DNA of 64,000 nt, from contig NZ_CP133111.1 in NCBI RefSeq assembly GCF_033001325.1, forward strand, positions 2,294,001 through 2,358,000, written 5' to 3'. The notes under the pieces are model-generated. The model did not search any database. It saw nothing but the letters and a program-made list of their open reading frames with translations, and was not told where the DNA came from. This document shows positions 29,203 through 33,592 of the stretch, piece by piece (positions within the stretch are counted from its first letter, which is position 1; every line of letters starts with the position of its first letter). This DNA is from Rhodopseudomonas sp. BAL398. GTDB taxonomy: Bacteria > Pseudomonadota > Alphaproteobacteria > Rhizobiales > Xanthobacteraceae. The position numbers and the translations under genes are program-made.

Positions 29203-30009
29203 ATGACCTCCGCCGCGCGGACTCCCTTATCGCTCGTTCTTATTAGTTTCCTGTTCGTCGTTCCCGCCTTCGCGGCCGACCCGACACCAGATTTTTCTGT
29301 CAAGACCAAGGCGTTCGACGGCAGCGTCGTGCTCGATGCCGGGATCAAGGCCGACCCGGCGCTGGCGGCCGATGATCTTGCCGAGGGCAAGAAGTGGATC
29401 GCCCAGAACAAGATCGACGCCGAGCAGGAGTACAAGGACGACCGCAAATCGTTCAGCAACGGGCCCTGGACCTATGAGCGCAAATACGCGATCCGCTCGG
29501 TGGTCGGCGACCGCTATGTCAGCATCCTGCGATCCGATTACAGCAACACCGGCGGCGCCCATCCCAATTCCGACGTCGACACCATCCTGTGGGACAAGAG
29601 CAGCGCCAAGCGCATCAGCATCCGGCCGTTCTTCACCGAGACCGCCGATGGCGGGCCGACGCTGACCGCCATCGCCGCCAGCATTCTGGGGTCGCTGAAG
29701 GCCGAGAAGGCGGCGCGCGGCGCCGACGCCGGCGACACCGACTACGTCAAGAGCATCCAGCCCACATTGCTGAAACTCGGCGCGGTGACGCTGGCGCCCT
29801 CGACCGAGGCCGGCAAGAGTTCGGGCCTTGCCTTCCACTATCCGCCCTATGCGGTCGGCGCCTATGCGGAGGGCAGCTATCTGGCCTTCGTGCCGTGGGA
29901 GAAGCTGAAACCCTATCTGACGCCGGAAGGCGTGGCGATCTTCGGCGGCGCGCGGCCCAAAGCGGACGAAGGCGACAAAGGCGACAAGGGCGGCGATGCC
30001 CCCAAATAG
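29203..30009 (+). CDS. DUF3298 domain-containing exported protein
   Basis: 268 residues from ATG 29203. A signal peptide ([19 protein letters not shown]) leads to a DUF4163/DUF3298 type body: [65 protein letters not shown] and [38 protein letters not shown], with the GGAHP signature of the RsiV-like domain family. Periplasmic, often described as lysozyme-inhibitor-like or RsiV-related, but role unknown. It overlaps the meaB start by 14 bases, so co-translation is likely. Confidence 0.75.
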
Positions 30010-30982
30010 GCCGATCGCGATCACCGCCTTGGCGGACGATGTCCGCGCCGGCTCCCGCGCGGCGCTGGCGCGCGCCATTACGCTGATCGAGAGCCGCCGC
30101 GCCGATCACCAGGCCGCGGCGCGCGATCTGGTGCAGGCGCTGCTGCCGCGCACCGGCCAGGCGCTGCGGGTCGGCATCACCGGCTCGCCCGGCGTCGGCA
30201 AATCGACCACGATCGACGCGCTCGGCATGTATCTGATCGACCAGGGCCACAAGGTCGCGGTGCTGGCGGTCGATCCGTCCTCGGCGCGCACCGGCGGGTC
30301 GATCCTCGGCGACAAGACCCGGATGGCGCGGCTGTCGGGCGAGGACAACGCCTTCATCCGCCCTTCGCCGTCTTCCGGCACGCTGGGCGGCGTCGCGGCC
30401 AAAACCCGCGAGGCGATGTTGCTGTGCGAGGCGGCGGGCTTCGACGTGGTGCTGGTGGAAACCGTCGGCATCGGCCAGTCCGAGACCGCGGTCTGCGACA
30501 TGACCGATTTCTTTCTGGCTTTGATGCTGCCCGGCGCCGGCGACGAATTGCAGGGCATCAAGAAGGGCCTGGTCGAACTCGCCGACATGATCGCGATCAA
30601 CAAGGCCGACGGCGACAATGTCGCGCGCGCCAATCTGACGGCGGCGGAATATCGCGGCGCGCTGCATATCCTGACCCCGCGCTCCGAGCATTGGCACCCG
30701 CCGGTGCTGACCTATTCGGGACTGACCGGCGCCGGCATCGCCGAGCTGTGGCACAAGATCGTCGCGCACCGCATCGCGATGCAGGCCTGCGGCGATTTCG
30801 CATCGCGGCGCCGCGAGCAACAGGTCAAATGGATGTGGACCATGCTGGACGATCGCTGGAAGGCAAGGCTGCGCGCCGATCCGGCGATCCGCGCCAAGGT
30901 GAAATCCACCGAATCCGCGGTCGCCGACGGAGGGGTCAGCCCGGCGCTCGGCGCCGATCAGATCGCCGGACTGCTGGCGTGA
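29996..30982 (+). CDS. meaB: Methylmalonyl-CoA mutase-associated GTPase MeaB
   Basis: 328 residues. ArgK/MeaB G domain: Walker [41 protein letters not shown], and [12 protein letters not shown] (NKxD). MeaB is a G-protein chaperone that gates cobalamin transfer to, and protects, methylmalonyl-CoA mutase. Fits the mutAB genes 1.5 kb upstream. It overlaps the preceding DUF3298 gene. The following region contains no plausible gene. Confidence 0.94.
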
Positions 30983-31571
30983 GCGACGGGGCCGGCATCG
31001 CACCCTGCGGATGACGCCGACGCCATCTGTATCGAATGTCAAACAGCCACGACGAAACCGGGACGCGCTTGCGCAATCTCGCGGCTCCGCTGAGCCCGAG
31101 CTGTGGCAGGGACCGCCCCGATGAGGGGCGGGGGCGCGCCGCGCGGCGCGAGGATGGAGCTTCGCGATCGGCTATGGGCCAATCGCGTATCGCCTTGCGG
31201 CGCGCCCCGCAGGCCGGCGAACCGGCCTGGCATTTCGCGGCGATTTTGGGCCTCGGGACCGTGCTTCCGGGCGCAGGCGCGATGCCGTTGCACCGCTTGA
31301 TCCAGGCGGTTTCCCGCCCTTCGCCTGTGCCGCGTCCAGCCAACTAACAAGTGGCAGGCTCTCCTAGTGGAGCCGGACGGCGACCCAAGGCCTCCCGGGG
31401 CGTGGTTGCGAGCCACGACGCGCAGGACGCCGCATCGACCTTGACGGGAGCCTCCCGCCGCGGCCAGCATGGATGCGGATCGCTCCGCATCGCTCTGTCC
31501 CGCTTCACAAGCGCCCTCGAGAAGCGCCCCTCACGGACAGGACGTTTAGGAAAATAATCGGATTAGGAATA
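30983..31571. repeat. Hairpin-rich non-coding element, possible repeat or RNA
   Basis: 589 bases without a convincing gene: frames exist in both strands but none has a ribosome binding site, a known family or normal composition. Strong hairpins are CCGCCCC-GATGA-GGGGCGG (31113-31131), CAGGCCGG-CGAA-CCGGCCTG (31210-31229), CGTGG-TTGCGAG-CCACG (31401-31417) and GATGCGGA-TCGC-TCCGCATC (31472-31491). From memory, similar sequence is found many times in Bradyrhizobiaceae genomes as chance-named hypothetical proteins. It ends just upstream of the pyroglutamyl peptidase gene. Confidence 0.5.
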
Positions 31572-32216
31572 TTGTCAAGCCCCCTCCGCATCCTGATTAC
31601 CGGCTTCGGGCCGTTCCCCGGGGCGCCGTATAATCCGACGCCGGCGCTGGTGGCGCGGCTGATGCGGCTGCGGCGGCCGGCCTTCGCCGAGGTCGAGCGC
31701 GTCAGCCACATCTTCCCGGTCAGCTATCGCGCGGTTGACAGCGAGCTACCGGCGCTGCTGGCGCGACACAGGCCGGATGCGCTGCTGATGTTCGGGCTGG
31801 CGGCGCGCACGTCCTATCTGCGGGTCGAGACCCGCGCCCGCAATGCCGTCACCATGCTGTGGCCCGACGCCGAACAGAGCAAGCTGCGCACCGCCTCGAT
31901 CGAGCCCGGCGCCGGCGCGCAAATGTTCGGCCCGCATACCCAGCGCCTGCTGCGCGCCGCCCGCGCCACCGGAATCGACGCCCGCGCCTCCCGCGACGCC
32001 GGACGCTATCTGTGCAACTATCTGAGCTGGCGCGCGATCGAGGCCACCGCCCGGCCCGACGGGCCTCGGCTGGCGACTTTCGTGCACGTGCCGGCAGTGG
32101 CGCGCGATCCGACGCCCCAGACCGCCGGGCGGATCAGCGCCGAGCAGCTGGTCGATGCCGGCGAGGCGCTGCTGCTCGAATTGGTCAAGTTGAGCCGCCG
32201 CACGGCCAAGGATTGA
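31572..32216 (+). CDS. pcp: Pyrrolidone-carboxylate peptidase (peptidase C15)
   Basis: About 214 residues, using TTG 31572 as a tentative start (AGGA four bases upstream); the open frame continues further upstream into the non-coding element. Family marks: LRILITGFGPFPGAPYNPT, catalytic Glu in LAARTSYLRVETRARNA, catalytic Cys in DAGRYLCNYLSWRAI, and catalytic His in TFVHVPAV. It removes N-terminal pyroglutamate from peptides, cytoplasmic. It lacks a long C-terminal tail, as usual in alphaproteobacterial members. The start is uncertain. Confidence 0.82.
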   Translation: MSSPLRILITGFGPFPGAPYNPTPALVARLMRLRRPAFAEVERVSHIFPVSYRAVDSELPALLARHRPDALLMFGLAARTSYLRVETRARNAVTMLWPDAEQSKLRTASIEPGAGAQMFGPHTQRLLRAARATGIDARASRDAGRYLCNYLSWRAIEATARPDGPRLATFVHVPAVARDPTPQTAGRISAEQLVDAGEALLLELVKLSRRTAKD

Positions 32217-32341
32217 ACCACCATTCGACGACGAGCAGCCATCCCGCAGCGAGGGTTGTGCGGCGCAATATATTGCCTCACCTAAGGTATCGCCCCACCG
32301 CCGCTCATGGTGCCATTTCACCGACACCGAAGGACTCTTGT

Positions 32342-33592
32342 GTGACAGACGTGAACGCCGACGCCTGGGTGTCATCGACCCATCGCCCGATGGGATTTCC
32401 CGAATTCGTCCTGATCGTCGCCTGCATCATGGCGCTGAATCCGCTGGCGATGGACATGATGCTGCCGGCGTTGCCGCAGATCGGCTCGGTGTTCAACATC
32501 GCTTCCGGCAATCGGCTGCAGGGCGTGCTGTCGGCCTTCATGATCGGCTTCGGCGTCGGCCAGTTCGTCATCGGGCCACTGTCGGATCGCTATGGCCGGC
32601 GGCCGATCCTGCTCGCCGGCATGGTGGTCTATACCATCGCCAGCGTGCTGGCGGTCGTCGCCCCCTCCTTCGAGACCCTGCTGATCGCCCGCGTGGCGCA
32701 GGGGCTCGGCACCGCGGCGACCCGGGTGATCGCGGTGTCGATCGTCCGCGATTGCTATGCGGGACGCCGCATGGCCAGCGTGATGTCGCTGGTGATGATG
32801 ATCTTCATCGCGGTGCCGGTGCTCGCGCCGGCGCTCGGCCAGGTGGTGATGCTGGCCGTGCAATGGCGCGGCATTTTCGTCTGCCTGATGATCTATGGCC
32901 TGCTCGCGCTGCTGTGGTGCGCATGGCGACTGCCCGAAACCCTGCCGGCGTCCGAACGCAAATCGCTGGCTCTACGCGACGTGCTGAGCGCGTTCCGCCA
33001 CACCCTGACCAACCGCCAGACGCTGGGCTATGCGCTGGCGGCCGGCGGCATCCAGGGCACGCTGTTCGCCTATGTGTTCGAGTCGCAGCAGGTGTTTACC
33101 CAGATCTATCATCTCGGCCATTATTTCCCGCTGGCCTTCGCGGCGATCGCGATCGGCATCGCGCTGGCGGGCTTTCTCAACGCGCGCTTCGTCGGCCGGC
33201 TCGGGATGCGGGTGATCTCGCACGGCGCGCTATGCATGTATGTCGTCGTGGTCAGCGTGATGCTGGTGGCGGCGCGCCACGGCCAGGTCTGGTTTCCGCT
33301 CTACATGGTGCTGTCGGCGCTCAGCATGTTCGGCTTCGGGCTGATGTTCGCCAATTTCACCGCATTGGCGATGGAGCCGCAGGGCCATATCGCCGGCACC
33401 GCGTCGTCGCTGTTCGGCTCGATCACCACGCTGCTCGGCATCGCCATCGGCTACACCATCGGCCAGGATTTCGACGGCACACTGCTGCCCTTCGCCACCG
33501 GCTCGTTGCTGTGCACCCTGGCGACGCTGGCGGTGGTGATGTTCGTCGAAAAGGGCCGACTGTTTCATCCTCACCGGCCCGCGCAAAGCTGA
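32342..33592 (+). CDS. MFS efflux transporter, Bcr/CflA family
   Basis: 416 residues from GTG 32342, with GAAGGA seven bases upstream. Twelve membrane helices. Bcr/CflA features: first helix PLAMDMMLPALPQIGSVFNI, motif A GPLSDRYGRRPILLAGMVVY, AVPVLAPALGQVV in helix 5 (motif C-like), and the C-terminal half with FESQQVFTQIYHLGHYFPLAFAAIAIGI. Proton-driven export of drugs or sulfonamides; the true substrate is unknown. Transcribed alone. Confidence 0.88.
   Translation: MTDVNADAWVSSTHRPMGFPEFVLIVACIMALNPLAMDMMLPALPQIGSVFNIASGNRLQGVLSAFMIGFGVGQFVIGPLSDRYGRRPILLAGMVVYTIASVLAVVAPSFETLLIARVAQGLGTAATRVIAVSIVRDCYAGRRMASVMSLVMMIFIAVPVLAPALGQVVMLAVQWRGIFVCLMIYGLLALLWCAWRLPETLPASERKSLALRDVLSAFRHTLTNRQTLGYALAAGGIQGTLFAYVFESQQVFTQIYHLGHYFPLAFAAIAIGIALAGFLNARFVGRLGMRVISHGALCMYVVVVSVMLVAARHGQVWFPLYMVLSALSMFGFGLMFANFTALAMEPQGHIAGTASSLFGSITTLLGIAIGYTIGQDFDGTLLPFATGSLLCTLATLAVVMFVEKGRLFHPHRPAQS

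Follow-up and report, generated by a model that had tools for sequence, protein, structure and literature searches.

Between meaB and pcp, the window (the whole stretch of 64,000 nt from Rhodopseudomonas sp. BAL398 analyzed here) carries one copy of a non-coding RNA (ncRNA) gene at 31025-31578, oriented on the minus strand and convergent with meaB. Similarity among the aligned copies of this gene begins at a -35 box and ends just past the 11-mer GCTGTTTGACA (31047-31037), which gives the element limits of ~31025-31578. The predicted RNA itself (31025..31544, minus strand) spans ~520 nt from the promoter to just past this 11-mer, a boxA sequence, where we place its putative 3' end; in other subfamilies the predicted RNA is shorter. 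An initial annotation of the stretch had drawn the element at 30983-31571. An element is indeed present there, but the unit is the one delimited above, and 30983-31024 is 3' flank without conserved sequence. The same annotation had the pcp reading frame entering the element, which holds only for an upstream extension of the open reading frame (ORF): the pcp start that agrees with relatives is a TTG at 31572 (31572-31574). pcp probably begins at this codon, in the -35 region of the divergent ncRNA promoter, and would thus directly adjoin an inserted promoter.

The ncRNA promoter, of the sigma-70 type, spans 31578-31551. Its -35 box, TTGACA (31573..31578, minus strand), is conserved in the aligned copies and overlaps the likely pcp start codon; its -10 box, TATTTT (31551..31556, minus strand), reads TATATT in most copies (GATTATATTCCTA). 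Across the alignment, TTGAC is followed after 16-18 nt by a TATATT-like box and then by CCTA. When both strands of 30800-31800 were scanned, this was the sole promoter-like site (10/12 matches; 0.1 expected in shuffles), and a strict form of the pattern was detected in 48 of 90 copies, versus 1 on the reverse strand. Judging from promoter spacing, transcription is predicted to start at ~31544. At paired positions of the RNA, G-U cells outnumbered A-C cells (190 versus 51), which identifies the minus strand as the RNA strand. From these sequence features, the gene is very probably transcribed from the minus strand as a free RNA. A second promoter type, with CTTATCCCC..TTAYAATG or a near variant instead of TTGACA, was seen at L022, L034, L140, and L066 and in the copies of genome G571, and it recurs across families. 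No terminator-like site was found when 30800-31800 was scanned for intrinsic terminators. A palindromic repeat, GTCCCGGGCGCGATGCGGC...GCCGCTTCGCAGAACCGGGACCC, lies within ~60 nt on the 3' side of the copies L002, L004, L007, L023, L030, and L066, and it may end or protect ncRNA transcripts.

The center of the RNA is a multi-branched core of ~195 nt (P2-P7; 31238..31433, minus strand) that contains an invariant CCGGAAG hairpin region and an ACTA loop. Covariance model R2 recognized this core as its single match in the window (156.8 bits, E 5e-28). In a MAFFT alignment of 49 sequences, the consensus fold of the core comprised 46 pairs, 30 of them with double changes, and its covariation score was 0.436, versus 0.162 for shuffles (sd 0.007; 0/500 as high); sliding the structure along the alignment gave scores of 0.05-0.10. 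Double changes occurred in 4/4 helix pairs of the 7-bp hairpin at the tip of P3 (31401..31417, minus strand). A full-length alignment of 48 copies contained nine helices, each with 4 to 7 pairs showing compensatory changes, and added three elements to the core fold. The first is P1, a 5' stem-loop domain (CCTGTCC..GAGGGGCGC..GGGACAG; 31495..31541, minus strand), in which 97% of cells were paired and 5/8 pairs had compensatory changes among the 48 full-length copies. The second is P8, a long 3' helix (31131..31208, minus strand) that joins GGGGCGCGCCGCAAGGCG (31191-31208) with CGCGCCGCGCGGCGCGCCCC (31131-31150) through 17 pairs (95% of cells paired) and is conserved in the relatives L138, L140, and G571. 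The last hairpin (CTCGGGCTC..GAGCCGCGAG; 31078..31100, minus strand) was paired in 87% of cells and had 2 pairs with compensatory changes. Folding of the predicted minus-strand RNA (31022-31549) compared with shuffles gave z = -3.2, with 1/100 shuffles as good.

The four strong hairpins from which the initial annotation had started are all present, and they fall into two groups. The P3 tip hairpin and the hairpin 3' of P8 (31113..31131, minus strand; 7-bp stem, CCGCCCC..GGGGCGG, with no T run after it) are included in the general fold. The other two are subfamily extensions, each of 8 bp on the minus strand: a UUCG-loop hairpin (CGAA on the plus strand; 31210..31229), which is an insertion in close relatives (L001-L004 and L010) that most copies do not have, and a hairpin outside the general fold (31472..31491), which is found in the longer subfamily and not in the shorter one. 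The suggestion of a structured RNA, for which covariance modeling of the hairpins had been proposed as a check, is thus borne out by strong covariation, a lack of compensating base changes is excluded, and the window element almost certainly belongs to a real structured ncRNA family.

The covariation also bears on whether the locus encodes a protein. Long GC-rich ORFs run on both strands, and either a 143-aa minus-strand or a 103-aa plus-strand ORF could represent an unannotated gene. However, even the best-preserved frame spanned the core without interruption in at most 19 of the 49 relatives, in keeping with the earlier impression that these frames make no sense as proteins. Core lengths fall in all three modulo 3 values, such that indels do not keep the frame, and base-paired positions covary. 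Protein coding is therefore extremely unlikely and, given the covariation and the lack of a conserved frame, ruled out in practice. The element accounts for one source of spurious hypothetical-protein calls, as well as of assembly breaks, in genomes of this group. Known RNA families were likewise rejected. The region 30000-32500 of the window had no match at E <= 1 to any of the 4227 families of Rfam 15, among them the covariance models of GOLLD, ROOL, OLE, and raiA. When eight loci with relatives were compared with Rfam, only miRNA and snoRNA matches were returned, at scores far under threshold (27-49 bits, cut-offs 59-200), and no gathering threshold was reached. A guide RNA that pairs with rRNA was also considered and discarded: the longest complement to the rRNA operon, 11 nt, does not exceed chance (random mean, 11.4).

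The gene is repeated in its own genome, where the covariance model detected 14 core copies; with two related elements that have a different core, at least 16 scattered copies are present. A blastn search gave nine long copies, 70-100% identical, in addition to matches confined to the core. In genomes for which all 150 candidates were scored, core copies numbered 14 (own genome), 17, 17, 18, 20, and 48 (G080), and the sister species G001 had 11 copies by the covariance model. Across the GTDB family, the core was present in 79 of 150 genomes and 32 of 47 genera, with named matches in Afipia, Tardiphaga, Rhodopseudomonas, Pseudolabrys, Rhodoplanes, and Pseudorhodoplanes; no core match was obtained in five genomes of one genus of this family with 7-9 Mb genomes. 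Beyond this family, 4 genomes of the order had clear but diverged relatives, and one of these genomes had 8 copies. A class-wide sample yielded no member beyond the own genome at low sensitivity, with only 8 candidates scored per genome. The suspicion of a widespread repeat is thereby upheld, with 14 to 48 core copies per genome, and a single-copy element in the family is excluded. Near identity in many Bradyrhizobiaceae, which had been suggested at the outset, was overstated: outside the genus, sequences that match the window copy are ~65-87% identical to it.

Two further elements of the own genome, L066 and L067 (G000:C1 ~1905500-1906050 and ~2665300-2665880), are near-identical to each other and have the same 5' P1 domain and 3' boxA combined with a different core, one that escapes both covariance models, R1 and R2. 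They constitute a modular variant of the ncRNA family. P1 is kept in these variants and in the relatives from other families.

Neighbors of the copies are unrelated housekeeping genes (those for Ku, an M24 peptidase, RF3, Hsp33, EPSP synthase, and others), and genes on the 3' side of the RNA are mostly convergent. This setting indicates a free-standing RNA gene rather than a leader or riboswitch, and no consistent co-directional gene class was found among the neighbors that would suit a leader, a riboswitch, or a neighbor-specific regulator. No tRNAs were found in 29 loci and phages gave no blastn match, and a tRNA- or phage-linked ornate RNA was rejected on these grounds. At the window locus, a cis-regulatory leader or antisense RNA acting on meaB or pcp would fit the overlap of the promoter with the pcp start codon and the antisense orientation that any read-through transcript would have relative to meaB. 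However, each copy has unrelated, mostly convergent neighbors, the meaB-pcp pair occurs without the RNA in the relatives examined, and conservation stops at the end of the RNA rather than at a gene. We consider regulation of the neighbors in cis very unlikely.

Comparison with relatives points to a gain at this locus. In the sister species, meaB and pcp are not separated by the stretch 30983..31583; the gap between them is 2 nt in G001, where the meaB stop and pcp start nearly overlap, and 5 nt in G028. Since these genes nearly touch in the sister species, the window copy represents a lineage-specific gain. The meaB-pcp gap of G040 and G064 holds other sequence, and no ncRNA was found at this place in the relatives inspected. 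In G064 (L261), the gap is filled by long imperfect inverted repeats (GTTCGCAAGTCCGTAA.., CGAAGTTCGC..), another insertion at the same spot. A second copy, at the Ku-M24 locus, has no counterpart at the orthologous position of G001 and G046, such that an empty site was found in relatives at both tested loci. Within its own genome, the window copy has two paralogues at 88-90% identity, and the best G001 copy reaches 82%; these closer own-genome paralogues suggest duplication within the lineage. In G571 and G080, copies have blocks in common in mosaic patterns, which suggest recombination between copies.

The mobile element that had also been proposed for the region is supported in part: in sister genomes, neither the window copy nor one other tested copy is found at the orthologous site. 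The main rival to an RNA gene family is a selfish or non-autonomous mobile element that is incidentally transcribed, the fold of which serves its own spread (for example, with a protein supplied in trans) and the boxA of which helps the transcript to escape Rho or to reach downstream sequence. Lineage-specific presence at the two tested loci, 14 to 48 copies per genome, unrelated neighbors, and the many copies that sit at contig ends of draft assemblies would all fit such an element. However, inspection of copies against the empty site revealed no terminal inverted repeat or target duplication at the unit ends, the hallmarks of insertion sequences and MITEs, and no transposase or reverse transcriptase was seen among the neighbors scanned. 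Moreover, 6 of the 14 copy positions in the own genome are common to the sister species G001. No blastn match was found in phages or in plasmids, and a plasmid-borne element was rejected on the latter ground; two exact patterns were absent from viral contigs, although diverged copies would escape such patterns. Unlike decaying repeats, most copies have kept fold, promoter, and boxA intact over deep divergence. With no transposase or repeats and 6/14 common positions, the elements look like a dispersed RNA gene family, and we rate the selfish element as rather unlikely.

The distribution of the copies along the chromosome was considered with regard to a nucleoid- or chromosome-organizing RNA or repeat, the copies of which would act in place as dispersed sites or local scaffolds. 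The 48 copies of G080 are more evenly spaced on the 8.19-Mb chromosome (G080:C1) than random (CV 0.59 versus 0.97; 0/4000 simulations), and one of three other genomes leans likewise (G064, P 0.04). However, this evenness test was chosen after looking at the data and was not significant in the own genome (G000) or in G492. The promoter, G-U pairs, and boxA indicate a transcribed product, and copy number differs between relatives, contrary to what fixed sites would require. An organizing role is therefore improbable.

The 3' end of the RNA carries the boxA GCTGTTTGACA (31037..31047, minus strand), the exact sequence that the two rrn operons of the same genome have as their leader boxA. The genome contains 13 exact sites for this 11-mer and none for its reversed control: eight of the sites are at the 3' ends of core-bearing ncRNAs, two in the rrn leaders, two at the ends of the variant elements, and one within a gene. 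Among 87 family loci, GCTGTTTGA followed the core on the same strand at 53 and on the opposite strand at 0 (expected, 0.08), and the strict boxA pattern was not found in the remaining 34. In G080, boxA is retained even though the core has strongly diverged. No boxA was seen in the relatives from other families (G571 and L138-L140), which makes it a trait of this GTDB family; together with the 34/87 family loci that do not have it, this means that boxA cannot be the ancestral function of the core.

Both rrn boxA sites are located in the leader transcript, where boxA belongs to the Nus-SuhB antitermination system; the rrn promoter lies ~160 nt before them, and 16S follows after ~235-245 nt. In contrast to this 5' leader position, the ncRNA boxA stands at the 3' end with no rRNA after it, and most copies continue past it as TTGAATC, unlike the rrn leader. 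Given its 3' position, it could not help elongation through the upstream RNA. The alternative that the 3' GCTGTTTGACA serves as the -35 box for an additional promoter was rejected: the copies looked at have no -10 box after it, and the rrn sites sit inside the leader, downstream of the promoter. We think it somewhat more likely than not that the 3' element is a working boxA.

Together, these data show dispersed ncRNA genes in the order of Rhodopseudomonas, with their own promoter, a ~195-nt core, a 3' helix, and, mostly, a 3' boxA in the GTDB family. To account for them, we propose that RNA polymerase would initiate at 31544 and that the RNA would fold co-transcriptionally and be released free. 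NusB and NusE (ribosomal protein S10) would bind the ncRNA boxA as they do the rRNA leader boxA, and the RNA, dosed by many gene copies, would act in trans on rRNA transcription or maturation. The simplest trans route would be to compete for, or to hold, NusB/S10/SuhB whenever S10 supply does not match rRNA output. Copies would spread via whole-gene duplication and be partly homogenized by recombination between them. The involvement of NusB/S10 and the action in trans are proposed because GCTGTTTGACA is identical to the rrn leader boxA and on the basis of published boxA/NutL work: when present in a non-ribosomal transcript, an rRNA-derived boxA recruits the Nus/SuhB complex, and NutL-containing transcripts titrate Nus factors and reduce rRNA expression (PMC4807359).

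We put this explanation as a whole, from dispersed RNA genes through NusB/S10 binding to trans action on rRNA, at slightly under an even chance. As the likeliest function, we infer that the RNA forms a ribonucleoprotein and, via boxA, binds or titrates NusB/NusE(S10). That a trans effect on the rRNA/Nus system would be the main function of the RNA is doubtful. The Nus/boxA proposal does not account for the core, the most conserved part. A bolder version would cast the family as a new class of large multicopy RNA with a 3' rRNA antitermination signal, forming a dose-tuned NusB/S10 hub that links ribosomal-protein supply to rRNA synthesis and has a sensing or catalytic core; this version we regard as unlikely. 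If the RNA is transcribed as predicted, its 3' boxA would provide a concrete, testable link to ribosome synthesis.

In general character, the family resembles the ornate orphan RNAs of bacteria, GOLLD, ROOL, OLE, and the raiA motif/ModT, which are large, highly structured, free-standing, and deeply conserved (PMC12286853 and PMC11706538). The window family differs from them in its 14-48 copies per genome, its 3' boxA, and its lack of an Rfam match, and the tRNA-adjacent or phage-borne setting of GOLLD-like RNAs is not its own. Trans-encoded sRNAs of the BjrC series (Madhugiri 2012, cited in PMC4842269) come from the same broad Bradyrhizobium/Rhodopseudomonas lineage and likewise are ncRNAs that lie between genes and have promoters of their own, a likeness by description only. 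No earlier description of the family was found in open-access papers, a scope outside which the 2012 sRNA study of this lineage falls. By Rfam and the open literature thus delimited, the ncRNA represents a new class of large RNA, which high copy number and a 3' boxA separate from known ornate RNAs. If transcribed as predicted, it would constitute a family of large structured RNAs that Rfam does not include, with up to 48 genes, in a host group that includes the laboratory phototroph genus Rhodopseudomonas and the genus Afipia. Such high gene dosage combined with strict structural conservation is unusual for bacterial RNA other than rRNA and tRNA.

The copies are also reminiscent of REP/BIME repeats in being dispersed, hairpin-rich, intergenic, and often located at convergent gene ends. 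However, REP sequences are short palindromes of 20-40 bp (PMC3733652), whereas the ncRNA is a unit of ~550 bp with a promoter, a multi-branched covarying fold, and a boxA. A separate interspersed repeat of ~109 bp was observed at L003 (~2139-2247); G001 and G046 contain dozens of copies of it that are 78-94% identical.
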